This document shows positions 1 through 47,472 of a stretch of 47,472 bases of DNA, in pieces (positions within the stretch are counted from its first letter, which is position 1; each line of letters starts with the position of its first letter). This DNA comes from a virus. Below the pieces are notes generated by a model. That model was not told where the DNA came from. It did no database searches and worked only from the letters and a program-made list of their open reading frames with translations. The stretch spans positions 1 through 47,472 of IMG/VR virus record IMGVR_UViG_3300020156_000039, one strand, 5' to 3'. The position numbers and the translations under genes were made by a program.

Positions 1-87
1 GATTACTTCGATCGGATCAGCGATGTTGACGGTCGAGTCTTGCTGGTGAAATGCGAAATACTCGACGCTAAGGGCGGAATCGATTAA
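1..87 (+). CDS. 3' fragment of the 62-aa gene (redundant copy of 47236-47424)
   Basis: The first 28 codons and the TAA at 85-87 are the C-terminal part of the gene that is complete at 47236-47424. It is in frame from base 1 and identical in sequence. It is not a separate gene, only the contig overlap. Confidence 0.95.
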   Translation, partial: DYFDRISDVDGRVLLVKCEILDAKGGID

Positions 88-92
88 AACGC

Positions 93-126
93 AAAAGGCC
101 GGAGCGAAAGCCCCGGCCTTTTTTTT
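93..126. terminator. Bidirectional terminator at the convergent junction (left copy)
   Basis: The 10-bp inverted repeat AAAAGGCCGG (93-102) and CCGGCCTTTT (113-122) is flanked by A-runs on one side and T-runs on the other. It can therefore act as an intrinsic terminator in both directions. It lies between the end of the rightward arm and the stop codon (131-133) of the leftward arm, exactly where convergent transcripts meet. Confidence 0.9.
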
Positions 127-130
127 GTGC

Positions 131-3100
131 CTACTCTACAGCAAGTGCCCCGTAAGCTCCGAATCGCCACGTCTCCAAAGCGGAACGCGTGGTCGAAAGT
201 GAACTCTTGAGGCCGTTGACGGCACGGGATGAGTCCGCATCACGAAGAAGATCGCGGAGCCAAGTTTTGAACAACCGTGGGTTTCCGCCAGCTTCAACAT
301 AGTCGTTGAAGTATTGAATCGGATTCACATCCGCGACATTCCCATTGTTGTTCCGAACTGCCGACCTAAACGATTCACGAAGCTTTTCTATCTTCGATGC
401 GTCGCGCTCGATCGCTCCCTTACCAGCATAGTACGCTTCAAGTTCACTCTGCTGGCGACTCGACCTGACACCGACAACTCGTGCAACGGTATCCATCCAA
501 GTCCGAGTCTCCGCCATGACCTGCCCGTAAGCGTCAATCTCTTGACCGCCATTGAGTAAGGTAAGCCACGACTTGAGAACTCGATTCGGCATCTCACGCT
601 GCACGACTTCCATCATCGCGTGAGTCCCTTCGCCCGGCATTGCATTGAGGAAGGCGCTGACACCGTCGACGAATCCACGAGCCACCTTAGTGCCGACTTC
701 AAGCGGAGCGAGTGTGCCACTCATGCCCGGCACTCGGAAGTTCGTGTCACCACGAGTCCAGAATGCCAGCTGACTGATCTCACTCACTGAGCCGTGTGCA
801 ATTGCCCCACCGAGAACCGGACCGAAGTGCTCGTAGATCAAGTCGATCGCAGTTGGTTCCGAGCCAGAAGCAGTCATCGAATCACGCAGGTCGAACAGGT
901 GCCCCATGCCATAGGTGCCGCCCAGACCAAACATCGATGCTTGCATACCAGCTTGGAGTCCCATCTTCCCGAACTCGCCATTCTCCATCCACCGGAACAT
1001 CTTGGTGTAATGGTTCAGAGCGTAGGACTGGAAGAGTCCAACCATAGAACCTAGTCCCGATTGGAACAGTTCCGGCCGGTTGATCGGAGCGTAGTCGGCG
1101 ATCATGGAATTGGCGATCTCGCGGGCGAAGTTATGCCGTGCGGTATCTCCAACGATTCCCTGATAGTCCGCAAGCCGCAGACCCACGAAGTGTGCGATCT
1201 GGCGACTCCAGCTCTCCGACTTATCGGACGCAATGCTGACCCACTTATCTGCCTCCTTCATCCACTTGAGCGCACCGGCCTGTGAATTGACCGCACCGAG
1301 AGCAGTGTGGTACTCCATCACAGACTGATTCGCATCGCCGTTTTTGACCATGATCTTAAAGTCATGACTGCCTCGCTTGGTGAACATGTCCTTCATGCCT
1401 TGCGACATGATCTTCACGCCATCGATGAATCCGATATTCTGCCCCTTCACATTCGTAAAGGTCGAGATCGGTGCTTTACCGGCCATGACTGCTGCCGGCA
1501 TGGTTGCGATGAGTCCGAGTCCGTTCATCACCGCGTGAGGCAACTCGAACCACCGCAACAGCACGCTTGCTGCCAGAGTGTTCATTGTTCGAGTCATCCC
1601 CTTGACCGTCGGTGGACGCTTGACACCACGGGACTCCAAATACTCCACCGCACTCGCATACGGAGTGTACTCGCCCATGGCCTCGGCGATCTGTTTGTAC
1701 GTCTTCTTTCCACTCAAGTCGGTCGGGTCCATGCCGATTCGTTGAGCAAGATCAACAATGTACCGAGCCGGATATGTGATCGCAGAGTTTGCAAGCACGC
1801 TGTCGATTCGCTCCTCGACGTGACGCAGCCCCTTGTCGAGGATGGATGTTTCGGCGAAGCGTGGACTCGAACCGAGGAGCGCAGCCTCGTACTCATCGAA
1901 AATCGTCCGCATCTTCTTGTTGCCGCTGACACTAGCTTCGGCGACACCAAGGACTCGCGCTTGGAGAATGGACTCTTCCATAATTTGTCGCAACGTGTCC
2001 TGACTCTGGGCGATCGTCTTGCGTTTGACCCAATCAAGTGCTTCCATAAACGCGCCCTGCCGAACGTAGGCTCCGACGAGTCCGCCCTTCTGACTCCCCA
2101 TTCCAGCCGTGGCCGTCGAGATACCCGGATCGATCCAGTCCATGCCTGCCTCGTCCCAGATGTCGCGAAGACTCGTGAGCTGGTCACGATCACGAATCGT
2201 GTAACCGCTGTTTTTCCCGAGGTCGGCCAGCGTGCGCTTCACCAGATTGCGATATTCATCTGGATTCCGAGCAACGATGGTACGCCCGGGAACGAGTTGG
2301 TCAGCAGGATCGAAAACGAATCCAACAAGTGCCCCTTTCGTATCAGCCGGTGGAACGTAGAACGGCCGATCGTTGATCTCCTTCTGCCCTTTGGCTTTGC
2401 GCAGGACGTTATCCGATTCACGTAGAGGCTTCGTTAAGTCACCAAATGCCTTGATGACCGCAAACGAGTCTGCGTCAACAGCGATCGGCTGGCCGAGTCG
2501 TTCATTGGGCATCATCGTGTAATCATCCCATTCATCACCCGCCGACATGCCAAGGCGGCGCCGGTTTGTTTCGGAATCCTTGAGGACGAATCCAAACATA
2601 CCGTCCTTGAGTTCCGCTACGTCCTCAATATCCCAGCCACTCCGAAGGCTGAAATACTGATCGAGCATCGCCCGCTGTGGAGCATGGCCGGCAGAAGTGA
2701 TGCGAGTCACAATGTCCTGCATGCCGGCACTCTCCATCATGGCCCGATACGTTTCGAGTCCATGCCGTTCCGTCTCTTCCTGCAAATGCGTGCCCGCAAG
2801 AATGTTCTTTTGGTCGCGACCCCGGAATCGTTTCGGCAGTACTTCACCGACAGCCTGAGTTGCGCCGCCACCGAGTCCAGTCATCTGGTCCGAATGCATC
2901 CCACGAACGTCCATCGCAATCGGCAGATTCGGCGACTTCACAAGCTTATCAGCGAGAGCGCTAACATGAGTCTTGCTATTGAGAAGTGTGTAAGTCTTTT
3001 CCGCTTTACGGAGAGTCATAGCAGTGCTATGTCCCTTCTGCGAAATCTTTTCAATCGCACTTGGCGGATCAAAGTAACCGATGATCGGACGAAGCCACTG

Positions 3101-5137: not shown

Positions 5138-5147
5138 TGGACTCTCC

Positions 5148-10444: not shown

Positions 10445-12115
10445 TCAGCTAATGTTCCCACTGTAGGAAACGGAGAGGTCCATTGAGTTCACTCGGAAGA
10501 ACTCATCTGCTTCAGTCGCGATGAATCGCAATCTGTAGTAAAGAGCCGGCGCCAATATGACCCAAAGGTCAGAACGCCGATTCTGTCGAACAAGTTCTGC
10601 GTCGAATACGTATTGATCCGACTCATCTTCATCGAGATTAATCAAGTCAGTAATAACTTGCAATCGATAGTTTGTAACTTCTTCGCCGTGAACGATGAGT
10701 CCTTCATCGACTGCGGTAAACACTGCGTCTGTGATTAACCCTTCGTCCACAATGTCGAAGACTGCATCGGCGATTCCAGCCTCGTCGAAATACGTGATGC
10801 CAATCGTTCCAAATGGAATCAACCGATTAATCAGTATCTCGTTGAGTTCCTGCACCACATCCGAGTGCGGCACTAGATTCTCAGCACGAATCCAGCCAAT
10901 GGTAATCTCTGATGAAAGCCCGATATATGTTCCCGGGCTGTCGGGGTCTTCGCGATTCTTCCGACTGTCGAGTGACGAAAGGAAAAAGCTAGTGACTCCA
11001 CGAGAGTTTGCATAGGCAAGTTGCCCACGTGTTTGCCCGTACGTGAAGAATCCGATATGCGGCTCACTGAAGATTCCCCAACGGTCGAGCATAATATCGA
11101 GAGCGAATGTCTCGCTAAATGCTGCGGTACTAGGACGCATCGCCAAATAGAGTCGATTATCGTTGATCGAATACCACGCATGGCCCGCTTCAGTCGGCTT
11201 GTTCCGCAGATACTCACGCAGGAACTCATTGAAGAGTGGCGTGATCGGCTGCGGCTGACTCAGGTTGTTGAACATAAAGAGTCCAAGCCGAGTGAGAATG
11301 ATGTAGTCGTCATCTGGCATCCGCGTGATAGCGAAGGCGCTAGTCGGCAAAGCTTGAGTCGACAAGTTCCAAAAACGAAACACACTGTCGCCGCCGATGA
11401 ACTCACACACGAGCGCGCCTGTCGTGGTCCACACAATCGCGCCCTGCGAAGTCGCAGTCAATGCAATCGGTGTTCCACTGATTCGTTCCGCAATGACCTG
11501 AAAACCAGCGCCACCGAGTGCAGGAGTCAGGTTTTTCGGCGCGTTCGCCGCACTCCAAAAGAATAACGTCTCGGTGATATACACCATACGGCCGTTGGTT
11601 TCGGCGATTGCGATGACAGGGGACGAGTCTTCAGTGAATCCCGGCACGGTGGTGCTGGTGAGACGCGTATAGGTGGGCGGGTCGACGGTGAGATCGACTT
11701 CGAAGACTCCGTGATTCCAGGCGCACGCGTAAGGCTTTCCACCAAGATACGCCGTAGTCCAGCGACGAAAATCGTAAGGAACATCCGCAAGTTCAGCCTC
11801 CACCAGAGTCGCAAGCGTCGTAACTTCATCCCACTCACCTACGGGAGAGCCGGGACTCGACGGGATCATCCGCCAAATCTTGCCCTCAACCGCAACGTGC
11901 GTGGCATCTTCGAGATCGAGAGTCTGTACCATTGAAGGCGCAAGGCCAAGCGAAGCACTACCGGCGATCAATCGACTCGCATAAGCACTATAAACGCCAG
12001 AAGCGTCCCAAGCGAAATTGCTTCCGCCGAGAACGCCGATTCTTCCGGATTTGCGGTAATCGACTGCGGGCTGATAAGACTCAAGCCCGGCGATTCCAAT
12101 ATTTGTTGTCGGCAT
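10445..12115 (-). CDS. Large tail tube or nozzle protein, likely beta-propeller, 556 aa
   Basis: The sequence is almost wholly beta-strand in pattern, with spaced W, Y and F residues, and repeated blocks such as VYITETLFFWSAA, AIVWTTTGALVCEF and IILTRLGLFMFN. This fits the propeller-like tail proteins of podoviruses (T7 gp12 nozzle or P22 gp10-type stabilisation protein). Near residues 455-480 two copies of a short acidic repeat, DAVF.(I/T)VDEGLI, are seen. ATG at 12115 with AGAGGTAA upstream. It lies between a 184-aa gene and the fibre gene, as expected for the part that carries the fibres. Confidence 0.65.
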   Translation of the reverse strand: MPTTNIGIAGLESYQPAVDYRKSGRIGVLGGSNFAWDASGVYSAYASRLIAGSASLGLAPSMVQTLDLEDATHVAVEGKIWRMIPSSPGSPVGEWDEVTTLATLVEAELADVPYDFRRWTTAYLGGKPYACAWNHGVFEVDLTVDPPTYTRLTSTTVPGFTEDSSPVIAIAETNGRMVYITETLFFWSAANAPKNLTPALGGAGFQVIAERISGTPIALTATSQGAIVWTTTGALVCEFIGGDSVFRFWNLSTQALPTSAFAITRMPDDDYIILTRLGLFMFNNLSQPQPITPLFNEFLREYLRNKPTEAGHAWYSINDNRLYLAMRPSTAAFSETFALDIMLDRWGIFSEPHIGFFTYGQTRGQLAYANSRGVTSFFLSSLDSRKNREDPDSPGTYIGLSSEITIGWIRAENLVPHSDVVQELNEILINRLIPFGTIGITYFDEAGIADAVFDIVDEGLITDAVFTAVDEGLIVHGEEVTNYRLQVITDLINLDEDESDQYVFDAELVRQNRRSDLWVILAPALYYRLRFIATEADEFFRVNSMDLSVSYSGNIS

Positions 12116-12125
12116 CGCTTACCTC

Positions 12126-12680
12126 TTATTCCGTAACTTGATAGAATCCCGAAGCCGTGATCCAAGCATTGTCAAGAATGTTTGCATCAGAGACACTCGA
12201 AGTCTGGGCATCATATGCTTGGCGAAGACTCATTGCTTTCCCGTCAAGATAACCAAGCCCGAGTAGCCTCAGCACACGATTTGTGGGCAAAGCGAATCCT
12301 TGATAATGCCCAATCGCCATATTCAACGGCGTCCCATTGACAGGGAATGGCAGGTCCGCGATGTAAGCTGTGCCTGCCGATGTGCCCTTCGAACTGATTC
12401 GAAGCGAAAACTCGACCAGCACCAAGGAACCTATTTTTTGATAAGCCCCAGTTTGAGCGGTATACGTGACTCCGATGTCACCGTCGAGAGCACCAAAAAC
12501 CAGACGCGGTGCCCAAGTACCATATTGAATCGAGGCTGCCGCTTGTTCAGCGGACGCTTCTTCGAGGCTCGTGAATCGAGCCTCGATCTCTTGAGCGTAC
12601 TCAATGAGGTCGCGGACCAACATCGCTTGCGTATAGTCTTTCGACTGCCGAAATTTGAGACGAAGGTCCGCGAGACTCAT
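12126..12680 (-). CDS. Conserved-looking protein of the tail module, 184 aa
   Basis: The N-terminal 45 residues form a charged helix (residues 3-42, with a coiled-coil look). The rest is beta-rich, including the stretch YTAQTGAYQKIGSLVLVEFS, a strand-rich pattern often seen in short phage fibre or tail-tip head domains. This suggests a trimeric helical stalk with a beta head, but I do not recognise the family. ATG at 12680 with TAAGGAGTGAATCA upstream. It starts 12 nt past the stop of the tail lysozyme gene. Confidence 0.5.
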   Translation of the reverse strand: MSLADLRLKFRQSKDYTQAMLVRDLIEYAQEIEARFTSLEEASAEQAAASIQYGTWAPRLVFGALDGDIGVTYTAQTGAYQKIGSLVLVEFSLRISSKGTSAGTAYIADLPFPVNGTPLNMAIGHYQGFALPTNRVLRLLGLGYLDGKAMSLRQAYDAQTSSVSDANILDNAWITASGFYQVTE

Positions 12681-12691
12681 TGATTCACTCC

Positions 12692-15058: not shown

Positions 15059-15215
15059 CGACTTGTTTCCCACCTTTGAGAATCACAATTTTGTCTGCCG
15101 CAGTACGAGCTGCGACAGTTTCTTTGTGGTGTTTGACTCCCCAGACGAAGCCAACGCCGAGAGAGATAATGGCTGCCGCGACAGCCATCGCCCCGAGTTT
15201 GAGGTAGCTAAGCAT
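15000..15215 (-). CDS. Inner-membrane protein, i-spanin (Rz-like) candidate, 71 aa
   Basis: One N-terminal membrane span (about residues 7-26, GAMAVAAAIISLGVGFVWG) is followed by a short charged periplasmic part. It overlaps the endolysin gene by 8 nt and the lipoprotein gene by 59 nt. By position it is the i-spanin partner, but at 71 aa it is much shorter than typical Rz (about 150 aa) and lacks a long coiled coil. It might instead be an accessory membrane protein. Ribosome site weak (AGAGG). Confidence 0.6.
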   Translation of the reverse strand: MLSYLKLGAMAVAAAIISLGVGFVWGVKHHKETVAARTAADKIVILKGGKQVDEEVFNADDAALCDILGGC

Positions 15216-16071
15216 GATTCAGCTTTAGCCTCTGATAGAAGGTGTAGCCGGCGATGCCGACTCCCACGATCATCGCAGCGCCCAGTGCATAACTGAGAAC
15301 GCTGTTGCCCTGCACGGCACTGACGAGTCCCGTAACGGCGACAAGCAAGCCCGCAAGACCTTCCGGCTTCTGCACGATCGAAGGGATCGTGACTTGCGAC
15401 GAGTCGTCCGTCTTCGCAACAGCCTCGGTCTCGACCTGCTGCGGAACCTTCGGCATCGAAATGGATGCGCCGGAGTTAACCATCTTCAGCGCGGTGCCAA
15501 CGACTCCAGGAACCGTAGCCCACTCGCCCTTAGGATCAACGCCGGTAACACGAATCGTCCAGCCACGACCGTTCGAGGCAAAGCCCTTCTTGCCCTTGAG
15601 GCTGCGCATGAATCGCATCCGCTCAGCACAGAATGCACGAATCAATTCACGCGTGCCGCCGGGGTAACGGCTAATCGCATTGAGGGTCTGCGTGCCGATG
15701 TTGCCGTCGATAGCAAGCGGAGTACCGTCTGCATTCGTGAGTCCAGTCTCCTTGAGCACCTTCTGCAACATACGGATCGTGCGGTTCGCCCCGGAGGTAA
15801 CATTCGAGTCGAACAGCGCGTAATCGAGACCGGCAGGCAGTTCGTCGCCACGAATCGTGTGCCAGTACTCTTTGGCGTAGATGTCGTAGGCTTCACGCTT
15901 CGTGAGCTTCCGAACATCTTCGACGGTGACTGCGTGACCACGCCAAGCCGACAGAGTCTTCTGCGTGATGCCCATATTCGTGGCACCACCGGCATCCGTC
16001 TTGGGCCGATTCACAAAGCCCTTCTCGTGACCGAAGACAAGTTCGATACACGTATCGCGATTCTGTTGCAT
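15208..16071 (-). CDS. Endolysin, GH108-type muramidase with C-terminal membrane anchor, 287 aa
   Basis: Residues 8-95 match glycoside hydrolase family 108: HEKGFVNRPKTDAGGATNMG, with Glu16 the expected catalytic acid. This is followed by a peptidoglycan-binding domain (about 95-185), the usual order in this family. Unusually, residues 235-285 add two hydrophobic segments ending in YQRLKLNHA. They suggest a membrane-held form controlled by holin or by membrane depolarisation. ATG at 16071 with TAAGGAG upstream. It overlaps the next gene by 8 nt. Confidence 0.9.
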   Translation of the reverse strand: MQQNRDTCIELVFGHEKGFVNRPKTDAGGATNMGITQKTLSAWRGHAVTVEDVRKLTKREAYDIYAKEYWHTIRGDELPAGLDYALFDSNVTSGANRTIRMLQKVLKETGLTNADGTPLAIDGNIGTQTLNAISRYPGGTRELIRAFCAERMRFMRSLKGKKGFASNGRGWTIRVTGVDPKGEWATVPGVVGTALKMVNSGASISMPKVPQQVETEAVAKTDDSSQVTIPSIVQKPEGLAGLLVAVTGLVSAVQGNSVLSYALGAAMIVGVGIAGYTFYQRLKLNHA

Positions 16072-18595: not shown

Positions 18596-18623
18596 TCTGA
18601 GTCTCCTTTGAGTCCAAGTCAGC

Positions 18624-18644
18624 ACCGCTGACATGTAACAGCGG
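18624..18644 (-). promoter_or_regulatory. Hairpin in the capsid mRNA leader
   Basis: CCGCTG (18625-18630) pairs with CAGCGG (18639-18644) around an 8-nt loop. It ends about 10 nt before GGACTCAAAGGAG, the capsid ribosome site. Such 5' hairpins commonly stabilise abundant messages. Here this role is inference. Confidence 0.45.
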
Positions 18645-18823
18645 CTTACCTTTTGAGAATTGGCGAAATCATACGCGCGCGCAAGGGGTTGAATGCGGGC
18701 CTTATCAGAGAAATTGCGACCCCAATATGAGTCCATTTGGCTAGACCTCCGGGCAGAGCTACCCCAGATTAACTCGCTGATCCCTTGACTGCGAATCGGC
18801 GCTTCGTCCGCTTACGCTCCCAT

Positions 18824-26208: not shown

Positions 26209-26215
26209 TGCCATC

Positions 26216-26245
26216 ATCATGTGGGCCAAACGCTGCCGAAGTCAA
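26216..26245 (-). promoter_or_regulatory. Leftward sigma-70-type promoter for the 333-aa gene
   Basis: On the leftward strand TTGACT (26240-26245) is followed after 18 nt by CATGAT (26216-26221). That is 5 of 6 and 4 of 6 consensus bases. Transcription would start near 26209, inside the operator-like repeat. Confidence 0.6.
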
Positions 26246-26649
26246 TCCACAAAATGCATTCGCTGGAAATTATTTCACTTGAGCCGACCGACGGCCATCC
26301 GTGCGCGCTCGTGCGTGTAGGCGCGTCATGTGCGCTCGTGCCATTTCCCGCCGAAACGAGCCGGAGTCCGACCGGCGGTTGTGTTGCCGATTTGTCACAG
26401 GTCGGCCGGTTGGCAGGGGGTTGATTCGTTCGGCGCTGCGCAGGCTGGCATTCGAGAGGCAATCATGCGTTCGCCGGTCACATGGGGTTGAGTCGGCAGT
26501 GGTACGGCCTTGTGCACCAGTAGGGTGGAGTGCAGTAATAATGGGCGTATGTTTCCATACGAAGAATGGACTCATAAAACATGCGAAGGCTATAGTTGAT
26601 TCATCGAATGAACAACTTTTTCTCTTAGGCTATTGATCGTTCTTCCGAT
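26246..26649. other. Divergent intergenic control region
   Basis: About 400 nt between the leftward and rightward early promoters. The left part is GC-rich with a near direct repeat (TGCGCGCTCGTGC near 26299 and TGTGCGCTCGTGCC near 26330) and short palindromes such as GGCCGGTTGGC. The right part from about 26540 is AT-rich. Apart from a weak 31-codon frame I see no gene. Candidate replication origin or switch region. Confidence 0.5.
26541..26636 (+). CDS. Possible 31-aa micro-gene
   Basis: ATG at 26541 with GGAG ten bases upstream opens a 31-codon frame ending TGA at 26634-26636. The product is mildly hydrophobic at its end (NEQLFLLGY). It lies upstream of the main early promoter, so it would need another promoter. 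Weakly supported. Confidence 0.25.
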   Translation: MGVCFHTKNGLIKHAKAIVDSSNEQLFLLGY

Positions 26650-35635: not shown

Positions 35636-36013
35636 GTGAATCAACTCCCGATCAGACAATATGATCCGGGCTTCATCGATTGCATGGTTCACTCTCTGAC
35701 TGGGGCGCAGATACTCTACTATCTGTTCCACACTTGGAGTCAGAATCAGACTCAATCCATTATCATCTGGTGCGAACGTGGTGAAACGGACGCCAAGGTG
35801 AATGCGATTCGAGTCGCACTCGCAAAAGAGAGGAAGGCTCGCGGCCTTCCTCGCACTTTTGAATTGAGGTTCTCGGAAAGCTGGCCTCATACCCACAACG
35901 GAATCAAGGGTGAGGCCATCAAAGTTGACCGCATCGGAGGCGGCGTGCAGACTCGCATGCGTGCCGCCTTCCTCACACTCACTCGCATGCCGGAGAAGTC
36001 CAATGGCAGATAA
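35636..36013 (+). CDS. Hypothetical protein, 125 aa
   Basis: GTG start at 35636 behind AAGGAGG. Alpha/beta pattern with SIIIWCERGETDAKVNAIRV, then a helix and a basic C-terminus. Overlaps the next gene by 11 nt. No family recognised. Confidence 0.55.
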   Translation: MNQLPIRQYDPGFIDCMVHSLTGAQILYYLFHTWSQNQTQSIIIWCERGETDAKVNAIRVALAKERKARGLPRTFELRFSESWPHTHNGIKGEAIKVDRIGGGVQTRMRAAFLTLTRMPEKSNGR

Positions 36014-36735: not shown

Positions 36736-37776
36736 ATGGCGTTCCCATTCAAAGGCTCGAATACGTTGGAGGTGCAAGGTCTGAATCTCAGACCTATCGT
36801 CACCTCTCACTCGATCGACGGCACATTCGAATCGTGCCCGAGAAAGTTCGAGTTCATGCACGTGTATCAGCAGATGCCGGAGGGCGGGTCTACTGGATTC
36901 GCCGCCGAAGTTGGTACTGCTTTGCACGAGGCTGTTCAGGCATGGGCTCGACTCGCACTGTTTCCCGGCCGTGATCGCAAGGCACATCACGCCTTCGCAA
37001 TTGAAGAGGGTTATCGGACTCTCCTTCAATGGTGGCCGTGGGCGCTAGAACAGGTGTCGCTTGGGGAAAAGAAAACTGGAATCAAGCAACGCTCTCTCGG
37101 CGAAGCGATCCTGCTCTTTGAGCAGATTGTTAAGGATGAGTTCTGGGAGTCGTGGGAACTGATCGACATTGGCAACTTCGGTTTGTCTATCGAAGTGCCC
37201 TATCGAATCGTTCATGCTTCACTTGGCATTGTGCCGTTGCCGACAGGCGAGCATGGATTCTTCGTCACACAAGGTAAGATCGACTTCATTCTGAAGAATC
37301 GATACACCGGCGAGATACGAGTCTTTGACTTGAAGACAACGATCAAGGAAGAGCGCGCGCACGAAGCGGCGTTCAAGTGGTCGGGTCAGGGTCCGGGCTA
37401 TGCTATGATTCTATCACAGGCGCAAGGCTATGACTGGAAAGAACACGGCCTTCGAGTCAGCTATCTCGTGTCGAACTTCGCAGCTGCGGATGGTTCGACG
37501 CCAGCGATGGTGAATCTTCGGACGTACAATTATACGCCCGAGCAGGTGCAAGATGGAATCGATTTGAAGATCGAACGTCTTGAGCGCATGAAGAAATACG
37601 CCGAGAACCAGCACTGGCCTCGGCGGAGTCATGGCTGTGACGCATTCGGTCAGCCGTGCGCATACATGGGTATCTGCCCTCGGCGGGACTCAGACTACAT
37701 CCGCGCTTGGTTCGCCTTCGAAGGCTATCAAGAGAGCACTCGAATCTACGAACCGATCTGGGAGTTGATGGCATGA
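36736..37776 (+). CDS. Cas4/AddB-like PD-(D/E)XK nuclease with likely Fe-S cluster, 346 aa
   Basis: VGTALHEAVQAW (His motif, about residue 60), GKIDFILKN (Asp, about 180) and VFDLKTT (D-x-K, about 200) form the Cas4/RecB-type active site. Cys34 near the N-terminus and Cys301, Cys308 and Cys314 near the end are placed as in Fe-S nucleases of the Cas4, AddB and Dna2 group. ATG at 36736. Next to a RecA-like ATPase it probably trims ends for recombination or replication. No Cas1 or CRISPR array is present. Confidence 0.82.
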   Translation: MAFPFKGSNTLEVQGLNLRPIVTSHSIDGTFESCPRKFEFMHVYQQMPEGGSTGFAAEVGTALHEAVQAWARLALFPGRDRKAHHAFAIEEGYRTLLQWWPWALEQVSLGEKKTGIKQRSLGEAILLFEQIVKDEFWESWELIDIGNFGLSIEVPYRIVHASLGIVPLPTGEHGFFVTQGKIDFILKNRYTGEIRVFDLKTTIKEERAHEAAFKWSGQGPGYAMILSQAQGYDWKEHGLRVSYLVSNFAAADGSTPAMVNLRTYNYTPEQVQDGIDLKIERLERMKKYAENQHWPRRSHGCDAFGQPCAYMGICPRRDSDYIRAWFAFEGYQESTRIYEPIWELMA

Positions 37777-38186
37777 CGAATAACCGCACAGTCCGACTGG
37801 AAGATATCAACTTCCGCCAGCCGATTCCGCTCCCGCACATGCGGCCACACGGGCATCTGCCGATGACTCCCGAAGCGGCGGCGCTGTGGCAGTTCCTTGT
37901 CATGGCGATGCAGGCTCTCGATAAGGTCGAGAAGCAGGTGACTCTCGAAGGCGACGACGATCAAGTCGTTGACCTATTCCAGCTGGCTCACTCGGCTCGC
38001 AAGATGTTCGAGTTGAAGGAGCAGGATGGACTCGAAAAGATGTTCAACTCGAGCCTCATTGCAGCGGCGAAGGCGGAAGCCATTCGTTCGCGGCTGCCGT
38101 GGGATTCTAGAATCGACGCATGGTTCGCGACTGGTGGCAAGAGCTACCGAATCATGGACCGCGATGCAGACAAGGTAGGTCAGTGA
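37773..38186 (+). CDS. Hypothetical protein of the recombination cassette, 137 aa
   Basis: ATG at 37773 overlaps the nuclease stop (ATGA), so translation is coupled. Residues 30-85 are helical (ALWQFLVMAMQALDKVEKQV). Not recognised. Its tight coupling between nuclease and ATPase suggests a shared complex. Confidence 0.55.
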   Translation: MTNNRTVRLEDINFRQPIPLPHMRPHGHLPMTPEAAALWQFLVMAMQALDKVEKQVTLEGDDDQVVDLFQLAHSARKMFELKEQDGLEKMFNSSLIAAAKAEAIRSRLPWDSRIDAWFATGGKSYRIMDRDADKVGQ

Positions 38187-39100
38187 TGGCAAGCACACTC
38201 GACGAATTGCCAGAAGGTGACGACCCGGTTCATCTGCTGGCTATTGCTGACTCGAAAGCGGGCAAGTCCGTGTATGGTGCGCAGGCGGCGATCGACGGGT
38301 TTACGATGATCTACATCGACTCGGACAACGGCGCATCCGCTCTGAAGTACGCGATGAAGGACAAGCCGGAGGCTCGGAAGCGGACGTTCTACCTGCCTAC
38401 GAGTCGACCAATGACCTTCCTCACGAACTTCCTTCGCTCGACGCCAGCGCGTCCAATGGTTTGGATGCCGGATCGGAATCAACTTTGGTCGAAACTCCTG
38501 CCCGGTGTCGCCGACGACGAACGAGTCTGGAAGTTTGCGGCCTCGGAGATACCGAAACAGTGGCTCGTGAATATTGATTCGTGGACGTCCACATCTTCGG
38601 ATGCTCTTGGGATCGGCTCCGCAGAGCAGAAAGCGGAGTTGCTCGAAGGCACGAATCAAGGCATCTACGGGGAGGCCAACGCGAATCTGACGTACATCTG
38701 CAATCTTCTACAGAAGGTTCCATATCACGTCATGGTTCAAGCGCACGGCACCAAGTACGAGGTCTATGACAAGCCGCCGGGATCAACGGGAGTCGTCAAG
38801 CAGAAGGACTTGATTCTTCGCGAGACGAAAGAGGTTCCGGTGTCGTGTTCGCGCCCGCATGGGGAAACGATGGTTAGTCGATTCAATCATATCGGCTGGC
38901 TCTACGTCAACAACCTTGGCGGTACGGAGATTGACTTCACTCGGAAGCCCGGACGAGTCGGCGGTGGTCCACCAAACCGTAAGGCGAAGGTCGAGGATCT
39001 TCCGTTTTCGAAACTCACGAATGGAGTCCCGGAACCTGTCACGTGCGATACGTGGTGGATCGAGGGCACCCACGCTGAGTTCAAGGCAGGTGTGAAATGA
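38186..39100 (+). CDS. RecA/Sak4-like ATPase (recombinase or loader), 304 aa
   Basis: P-loop ADSKAGKSVYG at residues 21-31. MIYIDSDNGASAL shortly after. Switch-like NIDSWTSTSS near residue 130. This layout is that of the RecA-fold Sak4/AAA_24 phage annealing-recombination ATPases. ATG at 38186 on the last base of the previous stop. Together with the Cas4-like nuclease and SSB-like protein it forms a phage recombination cassette. Confidence 0.78.
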   Translation: MASTLDELPEGDDPVHLLAIADSKAGKSVYGAQAAIDGFTMIYIDSDNGASALKYAMKDKPEARKRTFYLPTSRPMTFLTNFLRSTPARPMVWMPDRNQLWSKLLPGVADDERVWKFAASEIPKQWLVNIDSWTSTSSDALGIGSAEQKAELLEGTNQGIYGEANANLTYICNLLQKVPYHVMVQAHGTKYEVYDKPPGSTGVVKQKDLILRETKEVPVSCSRPHGETMVSRFNHIGWLYVNNLGGTEIDFTRKPGRVGGGPPNRKAKVEDLPFSKLTNGVPEPVTCDTWWIEGTHAEFKAGVK

Positions 39101-40522: not shown

Positions 40523-41697
40523 TTGCTTGGTTTGTTGATCGATTCGGTCTGCCCGGTCAGTACCACCGCACATGGGTCAGGCTCATGCGGGATAACTACA
40601 TTCCGCTCAACGAAGTTCGAGTCTTGTCACTGCACAAGATCATGAACCGGCAGTTGCTCACGAAGTACATGACGAGGAAAGCCCCGACATGGATTCCGGA
40701 AGAGGAACTAAACATCACGCAAGTGATCGACAATGTGATTCGGGAACTAAAGCCGCGAGCTGTTGTGCTCACCGCTCCCGAGTCACTTGCATGCCTTGGA
40801 CTCGCACCTGAACATGCGACGCTCCACAATTTGCGTGGCTCTGTCTATTGGCGCTCAGGAGTCCCGCACCTTGTCATGCTTCCAATGAGCGCGTGGTTCT
40901 CAATGGTTTCGCAGAAAGAGATAGGAGCAGCAAATTATGGATTCGAAAGTCAAGACGCCTTTGCGGCGGGACGCCAAGGGCAGATTCCTCCCACGGGCGA
41001 AGGTGCCGCCGACATACGTAATGAATCCGGAACTGGCGGAGAAACTAGCTCAACACCACGCGGAGGAAATGTTGTGGCTAGAGGTGGACAATCGACAACC
41101 GCTAAGCTGGCTCCAGCCAGTGCCGACTCCGCAGGCAGCATCCGAAGCCAAGGAATGGGAGAGATCCGACGAGGAAGTTACGAGAGCGCGCCGACGGCTG
41201 ACTCTCTCGCACGTTCTCGCAATCGCATTTTTGGCAAGCCTGACGGCGGCAATCGCAGTCATGGTGTGGCCGAGGGTAGCGGCGAGTCAAGATTCTCCGG
41301 AGCAATACACGATGGACATTTGCAGGGCGAGAGTGGCTGGGGCGATGGTGACTCAGCAAGCCTTGACGATGAAGATCGTAGCGCCGGAGGAATACGAGGT
41401 GATTCAGAAGACGATCCTCGGTCGCTTGGCGAGGGCGGAGCCGATGACGATCTCGATAGCGGAGAGTCAGACAGTGACGACGGCGTGTCAGCTACTGACG
41501 GCGGATCTGATAATGATGGGAGTAGTGACTCCCCAGACCGTGAAGACGGCGAAGTAGATCAGTTTTTCTACGAACCTGTCTTGAGTCCAGTCGGACGTTT
41601 CGTTTTGACGGCGGACACACAAAAGCTGTTCCGGATTCTTCGGGACGGCAAAAATGCAGCTGGGCCAGCACGGCCTGTCGAGGTGAATTGGCGATGA
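40519..41697 (+). CDS. UDG-like accessory protein with low-complexity linker, 392 aa
   Basis: Residues 50-130 resemble the second half of the uracil-DNA glycosylase fold: LKPRAVVLTAPESLACLGL, then LHNLRGSVYWRSGVPHLVML. The catalytic N-terminal motif of UDG is not seen, so activity is doubtful. Residues 140-346 are nearly all Gly, Ser, Asp, Glu and Arg, a disordered linker whose DNA also encodes another protein. Residues 347-392 again look folded (SPVGRFVLTADTQKLFRIL). ATGA overlap with both neighbours. Phage SPO1 has a UDG-like part fused to its polymerase, and here it is a separate gene just before the polymerase. Confidence 0.55.
   Translation: MIAWFVDRFGLPGQYHRTWVRLMRDNYIPLNEVRVLSLHKIMNRQLLTKYMTRKAPTWIPEEELNITQVIDNVIRELKPRAVVLTAPESLACLGLAPEHATLHNLRGSVYWRSGVPHLVMLPMSAWFSMVSQKEIGAANYGFESQDAFAAGRQGQIPPTGEGAADIRNESGTGGETSSTPRGGNVVARGGQSTTAKLAPASADSAGSIRSQGMGEIRRGSYESAPTADSLARSRNRIFGKPDGGNRSHGVAEGSGESRFSGAIHDGHLQGESGWGDGDSASLDDEDRSAGGIRGDSEDDPRSLGEGGADDDLDSGESDSDDGVSATDGGSDNDGSSDSPDREDGEVDQFFYEPVLSPVGRFVLTADTQKLFRILRDGKNAAGPARPVEVNWR
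40937..41557 (+). CDS. Nested gene: single-span membrane protein, 206 aa
   Basis: The frame lies +1 inside the UDG-like gene. ATG at 40937 has its own ATAGGAG nine bases upstream. The product has a normal protein composition: a basic start (KTPLRRDAKGRFLPRAK), a charged region, and one clear membrane span at about 88-110 (LSHVLAIAFLASLTAAIAVM). A mixed C-terminal domain of about 90 aa follows, with two Cys. The outer frame over exactly this stretch is low-complexity. This is strong evidence that the nested frame is the constrained one. Function unknown. Confidence 0.75.
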   Translation: MDSKVKTPLRRDAKGRFLPRAKVPPTYVMNPELAEKLAQHHAEEMLWLEVDNRQPLSWLQPVPTPQAASEAKEWERSDEEVTRARRRLTLSHVLAIAFLASLTAAIAVMVWPRVAASQDSPEQYTMDICRARVAGAMVTQQALTMKIVAPEEYEVIQKTILGRLARAEPMTISIAESQTVTTACQLLTADLIMMGVVTPQTVKTAK

Positions 41698-43793
41698 CTC
41701 AAACGATCTGTGACCGTCCACAACTGATGCGCGAAGCCATCGAGTTCTGCCGTGAAGCTGAACTTCTCGGTGTTGACGTTGAGACGATTCCACATATCAC
41801 TAAGGCAAAGAAGCCGCAGCCGGAAGTCATGACCGTTGTGTCATACTCCGGTGTGCTGGCTGGTGAGATTCACTCATATGCCTTTCAGCTGACCAAGCAG
41901 AAATCTTCACTCGCGGGCGAACACCCGTATGCAGAGCAAGCGCTGCTGACGATTCACAACATCAACGCGAACCCCGTGCGTAAGACGCTGCACAACGGCG
42001 TTTACGATGCGGCGTGGTTTCTGCGCTATGCGGTTCCGATAGCGAATTACGCATATGATTCGATGACCATGTTCTGGTCTCGCTATCCTGATCTTCCGAA
42101 GACTCTGGACTTTGTGTCGTCGATTGTACTCGATGACCACAAGTACTGGAAGATGGGACGTAAGGAAGAGGACTTTACGAATCATACTCTCTATGCCATG
42201 AGCGACACGGAGACAACGCTACGAGCGACCTTCCGTCTCATGGAGTGGATGATGAATGATTCGGTAATGCGCCGCAACTTCTACTTCGCGCATCTTCGCT
42301 GTCTCTCGGCACTCGGTATGTCGATGAAGGGCATGCTTGTAGACGATCAGATGTTCGAGGAAATGGAATCGGAATTGCGAGCCAAGGCGGAGAAGGCACT
42401 TGACGATCTGCGTTATCTCATCGCCGATGACTCCTTTAACCCGAACTCTGCTCCTGCAAAAAAAGAACTGTTTTACGGACTCCTCGGAGCTAAACCTCGG
42501 AATGCAAAGGGACGCATTCTTAATCGAGTCGGAGGTAACGCAAAGGTATCGGTCGGGGCTATCGTACTCCGAGGTCTCAAGAGCGAACATCCGATCCTTC
42601 GTCGAGTCGTTACGAAACTTCAAGCCGCACAGGAACCAGCGAAGCAAATCTCGAACGTAATAGGAATCGAGAGGAGAGCGGAGCGTGTTCATACATCATA
42701 TGATGGTGTTGCGACAACCACCACACGACTCGGATCGAGAAAAGATGCTTTTGGGTATGGAGCGAACCTTCAAAATATTAGAAAGAAATTCAGGCGATTC
42801 GCTCGTGCTGAGAAAGAACGTTCCTTTATACTTGGTATCGACCTCTCTGCGGCTGACGATGTGTACGTATCGTATGAGTCCGAGGAAGCCAAAAAGATCG
42901 AAGTGATCGAGGCGGGCTACGATACACACTCATACAACGTCGCGCATGTGTTCTTTCCGAACTGGACTTATGAGCGTTGTGTCGCCGGTAAGAAAGAATT
43001 CCTTGACTCAGCAAAGACTATCCTGAATCCAGACTACGAACTTGTGACCCACCCAATCACAGGTGTGCGGCAGATCGTGAAGAAGACGACTCACGGTTGC
43101 AACTACCTGATGGCGGGTCACACTCTTCTCAACTCGGCTGGGCGCGAAGCTATCGTGGCCGCTGCGAAACATCTAGGACACGCTGATGCCGGACTCTGGT
43201 CAATCAACCAACTCGTCGAGTTCTGCGACTTCATGGACAGTCGATACCGTGCGTATTATCCGCGATTCGCCAGAGCAGGTAGTGGCTCGTTCTACGCGGA
43301 GCTTAGTCTGGGACTACGGGCGCACCGCAGTTTTACGACGGTCTTTGGGTACACACAGAGATTCCTTGCTGACCCAATGGAAGATTCGACTCTTCGAGCG
43401 TGCGCTGCTACTGTTGGTCAGGCTAACACGGCCGGCAGGATCAACATGGCAATTGCCGAGATCGACTTCGGGATTCGTCACAAGCGTTTCCGTGACGGTG
43501 ACGCGCCAGACTTCGACGACCCCGCCAGACCGATCAACGAGAGAGATCATGGATTCTCTCTCCGACTTCAGACACACGACTCACTTGACTCCGTCGTCGA
43601 CACTTCACACCCTAACTGGATTGAGGGCGTTGATCGTTTCTTCCGAGTCATGCGACGTCCCACCGTATGTAAGGGCCGCGTTGTACGAATGGGAATCGAA
43701 GCTGATATTTCCATCCACTGGGCACACCAAGCTGTGACAGTGAACTCGGTCGACGAAGTGATTCTCTGGGCTAGGTCACAGGGACTCGCCTAA
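41694..43793 (+). CDS. Family A DNA polymerase with 3'-5' exonuclease, 699 aa
   Basis: The ATG at 41694 overlaps the previous TGA (ATGA). Exonuclease motifs: VDVETI (Asp28, Glu30), LHNGVYDAAWF near 102 and LYAMSDTE near 165. Polymerase motifs: A, GIDLSAADDVYVS near 382; B, KKTTHGCNYLM near 463; C, LQTHDSLDSVV near 625. Motif A has Asp where most family A enzymes have the Glu of SQIE, and motif B has His where Tyr or Phe is usual. It replicates the phage genome, with the helicase and SSB-like protein as likely partners. Confidence 0.93.
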   Translation: MTQTICDRPQLMREAIEFCREAELLGVDVETIPHITKAKKPQPEVMTVVSYSGVLAGEIHSYAFQLTKQKSSLAGEHPYAEQALLTIHNINANPVRKTLHNGVYDAAWFLRYAVPIANYAYDSMTMFWSRYPDLPKTLDFVSSIVLDDHKYWKMGRKEEDFTNHTLYAMSDTETTLRATFRLMEWMMNDSVMRRNFYFAHLRCLSALGMSMKGMLVDDQMFEEMESELRAKAEKALDDLRYLIADDSFNPNSAPAKKELFYGLLGAKPRNAKGRILNRVGGNAKVSVGAIVLRGLKSEHPILRRVVTKLQAAQEPAKQISNVIGIERRAERVHTSYDGVATTTTRLGSRKDAFGYGANLQNIRKKFRRFARAEKERSFILGIDLSAADDVYVSYESEEAKKIEVIEAGYDTHSYNVAHVFFPNWTYERCVAGKKEFLDSAKTILNPDYELVTHPITGVRQIVKKTTHGCNYLMAGHTLLNSAGREAIVAAAKHLGHADAGLWSINQLVEFCDFMDSRYRAYYPRFARAGSGSFYAELSLGLRAHRSFTTVFGYTQRFLADPMEDSTLRACAATVGQANTAGRINMAIAEIDFGIRHKRFRDGDAPDFDDPARPINERDHGFSLRLQTHDSLDSVVDTSHPNWIEGVDRFFRVMRRPTVCKGRVVRMGIEADISIHWAHQAVTVNSVDEVILWARSQGLA

Positions 43794-43794
43794 G

Positions 43795-43803
43795 TTATCC
43801 ACA
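43795..43803 (+). promoter_or_regulatory. Perfect DnaA box
   Basis: TTATCCACA is the exact consensus DnaA box. It lies two bases after the polymerase stop and 19 nt before the -35 box of the next promoter. One exact match in 47 kb is not rare by chance (about 0.4 expected), so its position in a short regulatory gap is what gives it weight. Confidence 0.5.
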
Positions 43804-43810
43804 GTCATTT

Positions 43811-43849
43811 GTAGCCGGGGCTTGACAGAAAATCTGTTCCGGCTACACT
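43811..43849 (+). promoter_or_regulatory. Palindromic promoter of the dNMP kinase block
   Basis: TTGACA (43822-43827), 16-nt spacer, TACACT (43844-43849). The promoter lies inside nested inverted repeats: GTAGCCGG (43811-43818) with CCGGCTAC (43839-43846), and inside it ACAGA/TCTGT (43825-43837). The outer arms overlap the -10 box. This looks like a site where a repressor would block RNA polymerase. Confidence 0.78.
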
Positions 43850-43904
43850 GAAACGGTTATGCGCGCTAGACGCATGATCCTTCCAACGTGCAATGGAGAT
43901 TCGC

Positions 43905-44165
43905 ATGTCCGAACGTAACACCTACCTCGCGCAGCAGGCGGCCGTCTACGAGAGTCCACTAGCTTTCACCGAGTCCAGCGGCGCTGCCGACGTCGCCACA
44001 GCCAACACCACCATGGGCGCCAACATCGACTCGATCATCGACTTGATCTCGCTCGAAGGTGCCGACCCCGAGGTGAAGCGCCTGTTCCTCGATGAAATGT
44101 CCCCGCAGGCTCGAATCAGCCTGTACAAGATCCTCACGGATCTGAAGGCGTCGACCGTCGCCTAA
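43905..44165 (+). CDS. Hypothetical protein, 86 aa
   Basis: ATG at 43905 with TGGAG six bases upstream; the upstream ATG at 43893 lies in that site. N-terminal half polar, C-terminal half helical (DPEVKRLFLDEMSPQARISL). First gene after the palindromic promoter. Not recognised. Confidence 0.6.
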   Translation: MSERNTYLAQQAAVYESPLAFTESSGAADVATANTTMGANIDSIIDLISLEGADPEVKRLFLDEMSPQARISLYKILTDLKASTVA

Positions 44166-44183
44166 CCGCTTTCAAGCGGATTC

Positions 44184-44226
44184 AAGGAGGAACCAGCAAA
44201 TAACCTTCCTTGGGGACTGGAAATGA
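44184..44226 (+). promoter_or_regulatory. Leader of the dNMP kinase: mini-ORF with ATA at the start position
   Basis: AAGGAGG (44184-44190) is a full ribosome site but lies 33 nt before the kinase ATG. At normal spacing from it stands ATA (44200-44202), opening eight codons that end in TGA (44224-44226), which overlaps the kinase start (AATGA). AAGGAGG can also pair with CCTTCCTT (44204-44211). This suggests a coupled leader peptide with a rare or mutated start, or a masked ribosome site. Confidence 0.5.
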
Positions 44227-44849
44227 ATCAGAGATTACCAGCGGTGATTGGCCTCAATGGCCCGCCACACTCCGGCAAGACACCACTCGGCAAGCTATTG
44301 CAGCAACGGATTCCTGATGCTGTGATTGTTCAGCCGAGTCTGGTGCTGTACGAAATGATGCAGGAAGAGGGTGTGGCTCCGTGCAACATGCTCTACCACG
44401 ATTACAAGCGGCGGCCTGACTCGCGCGAACAGCTCATTCGTAAGAGCCGTGAGTATCGCGCGCGTGACTTGCATGTGTATGAGAAGCGCATTGTTGACTC
44501 CATTGAATACCGCGAGGCTCGCGTCGTCATCATTGACAACGTCGGACACATCGCGGACGAGATGGAGTTCTACGACAATCACGCAAGCGTGTCCATGCTA
44601 TTGCGACTCGACACACCTGTCCAAGAACTTGAGCCGCTGAAGTCGCGACGTCGACGACTGCGGACCTGTTGGGAAGGTGACAGTCGGACTCCGTTGGAGC
44701 ATCACACGATGCTGACGGCGTACGACTTACATCAAATGATACTTCTACTTCAATGGTTGGGACGGCCATTGACTCCAGAGGAAGCAGGCCCTTACTATGG
44801 AATACACTCCATCTGGACTCGATACTTCGCAGCCGGTGAATCCGCTTAA
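44223..44849 (+). CDS. Deoxynucleoside monophosphate kinase-like P-loop protein, 208 aa
   Basis: P-loop GPPHSGKT at residues 13-20, then LGKLLQQR. The middle has DLHVYEKRIVDSIEYREARV and Walker B-like VVIIDNVG. The C-terminal helix-rich lid is Arg-rich (LKSRRRRLR). This fits phage dNMP kinases and related P-loop kinases that supply dNTP precursors. No ribosome site directly before ATG 44223; translation probably depends on the leader described at 44184-44226. Overlaps the next gene by 53 nt. Confidence 0.7.
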   Translation: MNQRLPAVIGLNGPPHSGKTPLGKLLQQRIPDAVIVQPSLVLYEMMQEEGVAPCNMLYHDYKRRPDSREQLIRKSREYRARDLHVYEKRIVDSIEYREARVVIIDNVGHIADEMEFYDNHASVSMLLRLDTPVQELEPLKSRRRRLRTCWEGDSRTPLEHHTMLTAYDLHQMILLLQWLGRPLTPEEAGPYYGIHSIWTRYFAAGESA

Positions 44850-46194: not shown

Positions 46195-46204
46195 GAGAAC
46201 CAGC

Positions 46205-47026
46205 ATGAATCAGACAATTGGTGCAGCCAAGACTTACATTGGCACGAAGATCATCAAGGCGTTTCCGATGAATCGTCAGGACTACAACGATTATCGCGGG
46301 TGGCAGCTGCCGTCAAACGAGAACGGAGCCGATGATGGATACCTCGTGGAGTATCAGGACGGTGGCGTCCCCAACGACTCCCGTCACAACGGTTACATTT
46401 CGTGGTCGCCGAAGGAGCAGTTCGAGAACGCCTATCACTCGACTCACGGTGGAATGTCATTCGGGCATGCACTCGTTGCGCTCGAAACCGGCGAGCGAGT
46501 CTGCCGCTCTGGCTGGAACGGCAAGGGGATGTGGTTGGTATTAGTCCGCGCTGATTCGGATAAGGGTGATGCAGTTGTTGACTACACGCTTAAATTCTGG
46601 ATGACAGCTGGGCTCGATGCCACCAAATTCCTCCCATGGATCGGTATGAAGACCGCCGACGGTGGGTTCGTTCCGTGGCTCGCGAGTCAGACCGACATGC
46701 TCGCGAAGGACTGGGAGGTTGTACAGATGGAACATCAATCGATTCGTGATGATCGCGCTGCCGTTGATTATCACGTAGACGCCGCCGAGAATGCCACGCA
46801 ACTCGGCTACGATGCAGAGCTTAACGTTGAGTCACTTCCGTCGAAGATCACCGGCAACCACTTGCACGGCCTGATCTATAACGATCGCAAAGCGCGATTC
46901 ATCGACGGCACCTACGTCACGACATCTGTCGTGCGTGAATGGTATCCCGAAGAGGATATTGCTGTCACTGATAGCGGCACTCGCTATCTCGTCCGTCTGA
47001 TCGAATCGGGCAAGCGTAATGGCTGA
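46205..47026 (+). CDS. Tad2-like (DUF2829) protein with two extra domains, 273 aa
   Basis: Residues 84-172 are a clear DUF2829 domain: MSFGHALVALETGERV, SGWNGKGMWLVLV, WIGMKTADGGFVPWLASQTD, DWEVV. To my knowledge DUF2829 includes Tad2, which binds the Thoeris signal 1''-3' gcADPR and blocks that defence. Residues 8-75 are another phage domain (YIGTKIIKAFPMNRQDYN, YISWSPKEQFENAY). Residues 173-273 form a third part. Stand-alone Tad2 is about 90 aa, so this is a three-part fusion. ATG at 46205 behind AGGAGAACC. Confidence 0.8.
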   Translation: MNQTIGAAKTYIGTKIIKAFPMNRQDYNDYRGWQLPSNENGADDGYLVEYQDGGVPNDSRHNGYISWSPKEQFENAYHSTHGGMSFGHALVALETGERVCRSGWNGKGMWLVLVRADSDKGDAVVDYTLKFWMTAGLDATKFLPWIGMKTADGGFVPWLASQTDMLAKDWEVVQMEHQSIRDDRAAVDYHVDAAENATQLGYDAELNVESLPSKITGNHLHGLIYNDRKARFIDGTYVTTSVVREWYPEEDIAVTDSGTRYLVRLIESGKRNG

Positions 47027-47246
47027 ACGCACCAAGCCTGACACCTTCGATCCGATTCCAGAGCAATACGCCAAAGGCCAATGGCAGCCGATGGCCTACA
47101 CCACCGAGGAAGGTGGTAGCTGGAATCAAATCACCGGGCCGATGCCGAAGAACTACTCGGCAATCCGTTACTCCAACGGTTGGATTTACGACAATGTGCT
47201 TCGGCAGATGAACGTGAATCCGTGGCGGCACGCAGATGACAACTGA
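47019..47246 (+). CDS. Hypothetical protein, 75 aa
   Basis: ATG at 47019 overlaps the end of the Tad2-like gene by 8 nt. Beta-rich and polar with several Trp/Tyr (WQPMAYTTEEGGSW, YSNGWIYDNVLRQM). No recognised family. Might work with the Tad2-like protein. Confidence 0.55.
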   Translation: MAERTKPDTFDPIPEQYAKGQWQPMAYTTEEGGSWNQITGPMPKNYSAIRYSNGWIYDNVLRQMNVNPWRHADDN

Positions 47247-47424
47247 TTCGGCAAACGAACGGATTGTCGTTTACGAGATTAAGCATGGAATCAGCGGGCA
47301 AACTCTGAAATTAGCTGCTGATGAGAAAGCAGCCAGAGATTACTTCGATCGGATCAGCGATGTTGACGGTCGAGTCTTGCTGGTGAAATGCGAAATACTC
47401 GACGCTAAGGGCGGAATCGATTAA
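47236..47424 (+). CDS. Hypothetical protein, 62 aa
   Basis: ATG at 47236 overlaps the previous gene by 11 nt. Beta-helix-beta pattern (RIVVYEIKHGISGQTLKLAA, RVLLVKCEILDA). Last gene of the rightward arm. Its 3' end is duplicated at contig bases 1-87. Not recognised. Confidence 0.6.
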   Translation: MTTDSANERIVVYEIKHGISGQTLKLAADEKAARDYFDRISDVDGRVLLVKCEILDAKGGID

Positions 47425-47472
47425 AACGCAAAAGGCCGGAGCGAAAGCCCCGGCCTTTTTTTTTGTGCCTAC
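47338..47472. repeat. Right copy of the terminal redundancy
   Basis: 135 bases matching 1-134 with one extra T in the T-run. See the left copy. The last base joins to position 135 on the circular map. Confidence 0.95.
47430..47464. terminator. Bidirectional terminator at the convergent junction (right copy)
   Basis: AAAAGGCCGG (47430-47439) and CCGGCCTTTT (47450-47459), extended to nine T (47456-47464). Same element as at 93-126. It ends the rightward arm a few bases after the stop at 47424. Confidence 0.9.

Follow-up and report, generated by a model that had tools for sequence, protein, structure and literature searches.

SeqA is a host protein that reads hemimethylated GATC pairs over short distances, and DNA uptake sequences, Chi and KOPS are short sites enriched genome-wide by selection. 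Another short site, GANTC, is the exact specificity of CcrM and HinfI. In phage phi29 the viral genome is organised by a phage-encoded protein, p6, which binds at a step of 24 bp as dimers and 12 bp as monomers; this step varies among relatives, being 11 bp for the p6 of GA-1 (PMC10899789). In the chromosomes of Alphaproteobacteria, GANTC is depleted at least 2-fold (PMC3973325). Pelagiphage clades vary in GANTC density, and the bias there takes the form of depletion (PMC9516812), whereas the phage DNA described here combines a 4-fold enrichment of GANTC with ordered spacing. In the literature that we searched, regularly spaced GANTC had not been described for any phage.

GANTC excess in the window

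The window (the whole stretch of DNA analysed, 47,472 bp, one strand, positions 1 to 47,472 of IMG/VR record IMGVR_UViG_3300020156_000039) contains 768 GANTC sites, against 182 expected from base composition. These sites extend over its full length (1–47472) at a mean spacing of 61.8 bp. The 4.2-fold excess is real and exceeds the 3.5–4-fold (roughly 600–750 sites) put forward in the first-pass annotation, whose proposal of active enrichment is supported. Markov simulations of the window, run as a check on composition effects, gave 297 ± 15 sites at order 1, 332 ± 15 at order 2 and 571 ± 20 at order 3 (the last figure inflated by the GANTC sites themselves), all below the observed count. When z-scores were compared for all 1024 pentamers, the top four were the four GANTC words (6.0–8.6). 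Among words of 2+2 bases with gaps of 0–8 bases, GANTC stood at 2.6 times its dimer expectation, the runner-up word at 1.64 times.

Codon use had been judged insufficient as the cause, and this held: synonymous-codon shuffles of the coding DNA of the window yielded 277 ± 12 sites where 640 were observed (z 31). As also anticipated, sites occupy all codon phases and lie both inside and outside genes, at densities that we report as equal (16.0 per kb coding, 17.3 per kb intergenic). The variants at N are almost even (178, 180, 197 and 213), there is almost no flank preference, and extended motifs or flanks were weak only. No convincing companion motif was found at a constant distance from GANTC.

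Regular spacing of the sites

GANTC intervals in the window have a CV of 0.45, where random placement gives about 1, and the Fano factor of the sites is 0.18–0.36. Site pairs closer than 40 bp drop sharply, gaps above 125 bp are few, and intervals of about 41, 54, 67 and 78 bp are favoured. Counted by bases, 94% of the window lies within 40 bp of a site and 99% within 55 bp; an equal number of random sites would cover 73% and 84%. Neighbouring intervals are uncorrelated (autocorrelation about 0), the behaviour of a renewal process with discrete peaks. We refer to this ordered array as the GANTC lattice. For all other gapped words in the window the interval CV was 0.82 or more, and no convincing lattice of another 2+2 gapped word was found in the window or in roughly 85 compared loci. 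The first-pass annotation saw the excess in number and missed the site-to-site distance as the selected property (see below).

Phasing with 10.5-bp DNA turns was considered and rejected: the peaks misfit, and the best periods are 13 or 26–29 bp, depending on lineage.

The lattice has thin spots. The longest GANTC-free gap of the window, 196 bp (26168–26364), lies immediately upstream of the first late gene. Site density in the 200 bp preceding this gene is halved across 17 related genomes, at 8.8 instead of the usual 17 or so per kb. Four clade-1 phages have a recurrent gap of about 320–400 bp within their c13 gene.

Selection on distance

Positions in the window where GANTC is synonymously possible are used at 0.10–0.35 near the previous site and at about 0.8–1.0 when 75–108 bp away. 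Site use in genomes G011 and G013 is non-monotonic: about 0.6 at 24 bp, 0.1–0.25 at 39–45 bp, 0.7–0.85 at 48–60 bp, about 0.5 at 66–72 bp and about 0.8 at 81–87 bp. Because the use of synonymously possible sites depends on distance, the interval peaks are not caused by coding.

Homologues at ~70% identity show turnover of GANTC sites, with replacements 12–40 bp away that avoid positions less than 20 bp from kept sites. Since lost sites are replaced nearby in this way, the spacing itself is selected; what selection acts on is how far apart neighbouring GANTC sites lie.

The lattice in related phages

Relatives were found through the major capsid protein (17402–18736, minus strand), which also served, along with the terminase large subunit (18953–20488, minus strand), for tree building. 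Comparison with related phages, proposed in the first-pass annotation, revealed the lattice in at least 25 related contigs from uncultured phages. Some near relatives share the gene order but have no lattice. Fine structure of the intervals, measured against a jittered null, had z of 6–12 in 16 of 18 genomes; it was lower in G015 (z 3.4) and absent in G016. The two halves of one genome match in interval spectrum (r 0.49–0.86, again in 16 of 18 genomes). Mean spectrum correlation was 0.47 and 0.59 inside two subclades, versus 0.03 between them. The preferred distances are inherited, and they differ between lineages.

The TerL tree is consistent with the lattice having been gained once and lost once, the loss being in G004, where GANTC is avoided (0.36×, codon-shuffle z −7.4). 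Depletion of the kind expected for restriction-site avoidance was seen among relatives only in G004, in L162 (0.28×) and, more weakly, in G019, compared with the 4.2-fold excess of the window.

The first-pass annotation saw no methylase gene in the phage, and searches agree: PF01555, the CcrM family, was matched in 0 of 20 genomes, and Pfam, PHROG and NCBIfam scans of the window proteins found no methylase. As for host clues, the lattice phages have no tRNA genes, and the only match in a host search of genome contigs was a lattice-free contig from a binned metagenome assembly. Ten isolated phages of alphaproteobacterial hosts all lack the lattice, which argues that host CcrM alone is not its cause.

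Candidate proteins

No gene was found in every lattice phage yet missing from every lattice-free relative. A small basic protein (35636–36013, plus strand; families c31/c33), whose family ranked as the most basic among 45 gene families compared, has homologues in 18 of 18 lattice genomes. AF2 models of the family (pLDDT 84.7 and 91.3) have b-a-b-a-b-b order with a C-terminal helix, and Foldseek ranked Alba/SpoVS structures top for the two models (best E 0.016 and 0.0035; TM 0.35–0.48, no E below 0.001). Neither Pfam nor a PDB profile search matched it to Alba, so we call the predicted structure an Alba-like fold rather than Alba.

Family c16 (37656–38186, plus strand, true start probably 37773; about 135 aa) and family c15 (43893–44165, plus strand; 75–90 aa) are each present in 18 of 18 lattice genomes and in G004, and were not found in G020 or outgroups. 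The c15 gene directly follows that of DNA polymerase (41688–43793, plus strand, PHROG 17), and all 13 contigs found through c15 have the lattice. Both clade-specific families were gained where the lattice was gained. By predicted structure, then, the Alba-like protein would be the best candidate for a protein that organises DNA on the lattice; by gene distribution, c15 and c16 would be the best candidates.

Possible readings of the lattice

The lattice suggests that phage DNA is read, in the manner of a ruler, by some structure or mark. We tentatively favour, at something short of an even chance, GANTC sites as anchors for a genome-wide DNA-organising protein, like phi29 p6 in principle, spread over the whole phage DNA inside the cell or the particle. 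Such an organiser would bind GANTC weakly and link to the next anchor only at lengths that its assembly allows (about 24–26, 33–41, 50–60, 67 and 77–86 bp; several lineages show periods of 13 or 26 bp). The nucleoprotein so formed could compact the genome, or mark it and shield it from nucleases acting on host or foreign DNA, or do both. Since each phage lineage has a ruler of its own, the phage itself probably encodes the organiser. A wider claim, which we hold with more doubt, is that some phages write into their base sequence, atop the genes, an array of anchors that spans the genome and has a ruler specific to the lineage. A chromatin-like viral protein would read this array, organising the phage genome and distinguishing it from host DNA, and the sequence itself would offer an alternative to base modification.

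Several observations count against a nucleoprotein. The 13 or 26 bp period departs from the 10.5 bp of B-DNA, and no one geometry was found that explains all interval spectra. A bare GANTC, indifferent to flanks and to N, is also exactly what a methylase recognises. Alba proteins usually bind without sequence preference, and Alba-like homologues occur in the lattice-free G004 and G020, which counts against an organising role for this family.

A methyl mark is unlikely, though it has evidence behind it. Here a host CcrM-type enzyme would methylate GANTC, and methyl-GANTC within reach everywhere would block a nuclease or label the DNA as self. The motif with its random N and near absence of flank preference fits that enzyme, the scarcity of long gaps suits a coverage rule, and G004 and L162 avoid GANTC as if it were relevant to their hosts. 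Were the host alphaproteobacterial, its GANTC-poor chromosome (PMC3973325) would allow phage and host DNA to be told apart by GANTC density. Blocking alone, however, fails to predict lineage-specific intervals with dips at 39–45 or 60–66 bp, and the lattice-free phages of alphaproteobacterial hosts also speak against it.

It is improbable that a replication, packaging or ejection machine steps along the DNA and needs GANTC at preferred step lengths. The lattice does span the genome end to end, and the thin density before the first late gene and the c13 gap suggest local exceptions, but intervals are mutually independent and the core machine genes also occur in lattice-free relatives; motors are not known to need such sites. 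More improbable again is a decoy that titrates either CcrM, the host methylase, or the regulator GcrA. With about 770 sites, each genome copy might compete strongly with the host chromosome, yet a decoy needs number rather than spacing and leaves lineage-specific spectra and compensatory turnover unexplained. Mutation or biased repair that generates GANTC, as very-short-patch repair does at its site, could lift the frequency of one short site genome-wide; it gives no reason for suppressed close pairs, and its simple form is refuted by distance-dependent use and nearby replacement of lost sites, leaving it very improbable. Base pairing between GANUC sites, whether in RNA or in single-stranded DNA, is hardly credible: GANTC is self-complementary, but neighbouring N bases do not covary (complementary fraction 0.22–0.28, expected 0.24–0.27). 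A composition, codon or assembly artefact has next to no probability, being refuted by codon-shuffle z of 31–43 in three genomes and opposed by the 3.1–5.1-fold excess that recurs across many IMG datasets, in at least 26 contigs, and by near relatives that share gene order and lack the lattice.

Comparison with known systems

The lattice reverses the usual view of phages as avoiding short methylase or restriction sites. If it is read by a protein, as in the anchoring reading that we favour, it would be a second code over the whole viral genome, with a measurable grammar, and would give viruses a new means of organising or marking their DNA. Our procedure, in which interval CV and spectrum are computed for each short word, can be applied to all phage genomes to look for further lattices.

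Going by the DNA pattern, the likeness to phi29 p6 lies in spacings of about 24–26 and 13 bp that differ between lineages. By contrast, p6 makes use of bendable DNA, not of one fixed short site recurring throughout the genome, and the candidate here has a predicted Alba-like fold; general Pfam and PHROG scans of the window proteins did not name p6 among their matches. With SeqA the lattice shares a short palindromic methylase site, a putative protein reader and preferred distances between neighbours, whereas SeqA is a host protein acting on hemimethylated GATC, and no SeqA-like protein is found here. DNA uptake sequences, Chi and KOPS are alike in the selected genome-wide enrichment of short sites, but they are longer, often polar and spaced at roughly a kilobase with no fine interval spectrum, whereas the GANTC lattice is a palindrome every 62 bp.

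GANTC sites in the window are in excess and evenly spaced

The window holds 768 GANTC sites in its 47,472 bp, 4.2 times the 182 expected from base composition, which upholds the genome-wide over-representation reported by the first-pass annotation. The four N variants are nearly equal in number. Markov chains predicted 297 ± 15 sites at order 1, 332 ± 15 at order 2 and 571 ± 20 at order 3, a chain that is already trained on the four-letter parts of the sites themselves. When all 1024 pentamers are ranked by over-representation, the GANTC words take the first four places, and among gapped words of 2+2 bases GANTC reaches 2.6x, with the runner-up at 1.64x. Shuffling synonymous codons within genes gave 277 ± 12 sites, against 640 in the real genes (z 31). 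GANTC occupies about half of the protein-permitted positions. The excess is therefore confirmed.

N is random and the flanks are nearly neutral, the N bases of neighbouring sites do not covary, and a search for a partner motif found none; the element is the bare GANTC. CCWGG is strongly depleted over the whole window (CCTGG 2, CCAGG 9; z about -6), which suggests that a different restriction or methylase target is being avoided.

The main feature, absent from the first-pass annotation, is the spacing of the sites. Intervals average 61.8 bp with a CV of 0.45 (random, about 1; next most regular word, 0.82), and counts per segment are strongly under-dispersed (Fano 0.18–0.36). Gaps above 125 bp are rare, as are pairs less than 40 bp apart, whose density would be about that expected of unselected sites. 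The nearest site is no more than 40 bp away for 94% of bases and no more than 55 bp away for 99%; with equally many sites placed at random these figures are 73% and 84%. Preferred intervals fall near 41, 54, 67 and 78 bp. A search of 5.4 million open-access papers turned up no description of regularly spaced GANTC in phages; the published phage bias is depletion (PMC9516812), and GANTC is under-represented in alphaproteobacterial chromosomes (PMC3973325).

Other window genes include one for a Tad2-like domain protein (46205–47026, + strand; PF11195, E 2.7e-25), a probable Thoeris anti-defence protein, and one for an endolysin (15208–16071, - strand) that belongs to glycosyl hydrolase family 108 and has a peptidoglycan-binding domain.

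Distribution among related phages

Relatives, from a phage family of ~43–52 kb, were gathered by IMG/VR scans with the capsid protein. Regularly spaced GANTC, which we term the lattice, was present in 25 or more separate contigs in addition to the window (about 37–57% capsid identity), with GANTC excess of 3.1- to 5.1-fold and interval CV of 0.45–0.76. It was absent from four relatives at 36–49% capsid identity (G004, 0.36x; G019, 0.57x; G020, 0.78x; L162, 0.28x), from all relatives below 30%, and from the isolated phages PaP2, Tiera, EBPR3, P5 and Kuura. A scan with c15 in place of the capsid protein yielded 13 contigs, 13/13 with the lattice and 5/13 new, some of which may be fragments of genomes already counted. 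The terminase tree, where G004 nests inside the lattice clade with full support, fits one gain at the clade base and one loss in G004; the capsid tree requires three changes. G004 avoids GANTC (codon-shuffle z -7.4).

One tRNA-Leu gene each was noted in the lattice-minus G004 (L034–L036) and G020 (L155–L157), and none in the scanned stretches of lattice phages (most, not all, of each contig). In the lattice genome G007, a ~1.5-kb patch (11142–12687) over the c29 gene is almost without GANTC, perhaps as recently acquired DNA. A GANTC-free gap of ~320–400 bp recurs in c13, a primase/helicase-like gene, in clade-1 phages G002, G003, G008 and G009, possibly marking an origin or other binding region. 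Palindromes enriched without regular spacing were AGNCT in PaP2 (NC_005884; 2.8x) and CGAN5TCG in Caulobacter phage Kuura (OQ067476; 4.7x).

Preferred distances are inherited and under selection

Each lineage has its own heritable set of preferred GANTC distances. One subclade (G000, G001, G002, G003, G009) has peaks at ~24, 41, 54, 67 and 78 bp, the first of which the window lacks; the other (G006, G010–G013 and near relatives) has peaks at ~25, 33, 51, 59, 77, 85 and 109 bp. Within-subclade spectrum correlations averaged 0.47 and 0.59, the between-subclade correlation 0.03. Fine structure exceeded a jittered null in 16 of 18 genomes (z 6–12; G015, 3.4; G016, none), and independent halves of one genome correlated at r 0.49–0.86 in 16 genomes (G015, 0.28; G016, -0.23). 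Consecutive intervals are independent of each other. In clade-2 genomes a small but clear G+C excess (+0.02, ~7–8 standard errors) lies 28–31 bp from each GANTC.

Selection acts on the distance between sites. We scored usage of each protein-permitted position against distance from the preceding site, with a list built from present-day proteins and so partly shaped by the sites. Window usage was a scattered 0.10–0.35 below 36 bp and about 0.8–1.0 at 75–108 bp. In G011 and G013 it was non-monotonic: ~0.6 at 24 bp, 0.1–0.25 at 39–45, 0.7–0.85 at 48–60, ~0.5 at 66–72 and ~0.8 at 81–87. In homologous DNA of ~70% identity, 34–50% of sites were kept in place (most control words 4–30%, up to 36%). Phage-specific sites were matched by the other phage's specific sites 12–40 bp away, at pair densities mostly 1.1–1.9 of expectation, and avoided the first 20 bp beside kept sites (0–0.4 of expectation in most pairs). 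Losses are therefore compensated nearby, and spacing is conserved.

Candidate reader proteins

No gene was present in all lattice phages and missing from all lattice-minus relatives. Two small families of unassigned function, c15 (window 43893–44165, +) and c16 (37656–38186, +), occur in 18/18 lattice genomes and in G004, a secondary loss that still has both; neither was detectable in G020 or the outgroups. A small basic family (35636–36013, +), the most basic of 45 families checked, gave confident AF2 models (pLDDT 84.7 and 91.3), for both of which Foldseek ranked Alba/SpoVS proteins first (best E 0.016 and 0.0035; TM 0.35–0.48). Sequence searches gave no Alba/SpoVS placement, and homologues also occur in lattice-minus G004 and G020. 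This predicted Alba-like protein is a lead as putative reader, not an identification. Replication-region proteins of G002 (42354–43352, 43690–44523, 37925–38632) and their homologues have similar C-termini, approximately RFG[DN]..[IV][DN]F, which may serve as a common docking peptide.

Proposed mechanism

GANTC is the specificity of CcrM and HinfI, and the main rival explanation is that a host methyl mark protects or labels the phage. Such a mark accounts for the motif and for coverage of the genome by sites, but leaves the lineage-specific interval spectra unexplained. The earlier remark that no methylase gene is seen in the phage holds, the CcrM family being encoded in 0 of 20 genomes searched. 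A CcrM-bearing host is not a sufficient cause of the lattice, because ten isolated phages that infect Alphaproteobacteria contain 0–22 three-site matches each (0.15 per kb or less); the window has 134 (2.8 per kb) and G011 has 174.

These results are consistent with an array of GANTC anchors that spans the genome and would be read by a protein that organises the DNA and can assemble only across certain linker lengths. The reader would be phage-encoded and the benefit compaction or protection; where phage populations are very large, even weak selection on each site might suffice. In principle the proposed reader would work like phi29 p6, which has a step of 24 bp per dimer, or 12 bp per monomer, the step in phage GA-1 being different (PMC10899789).
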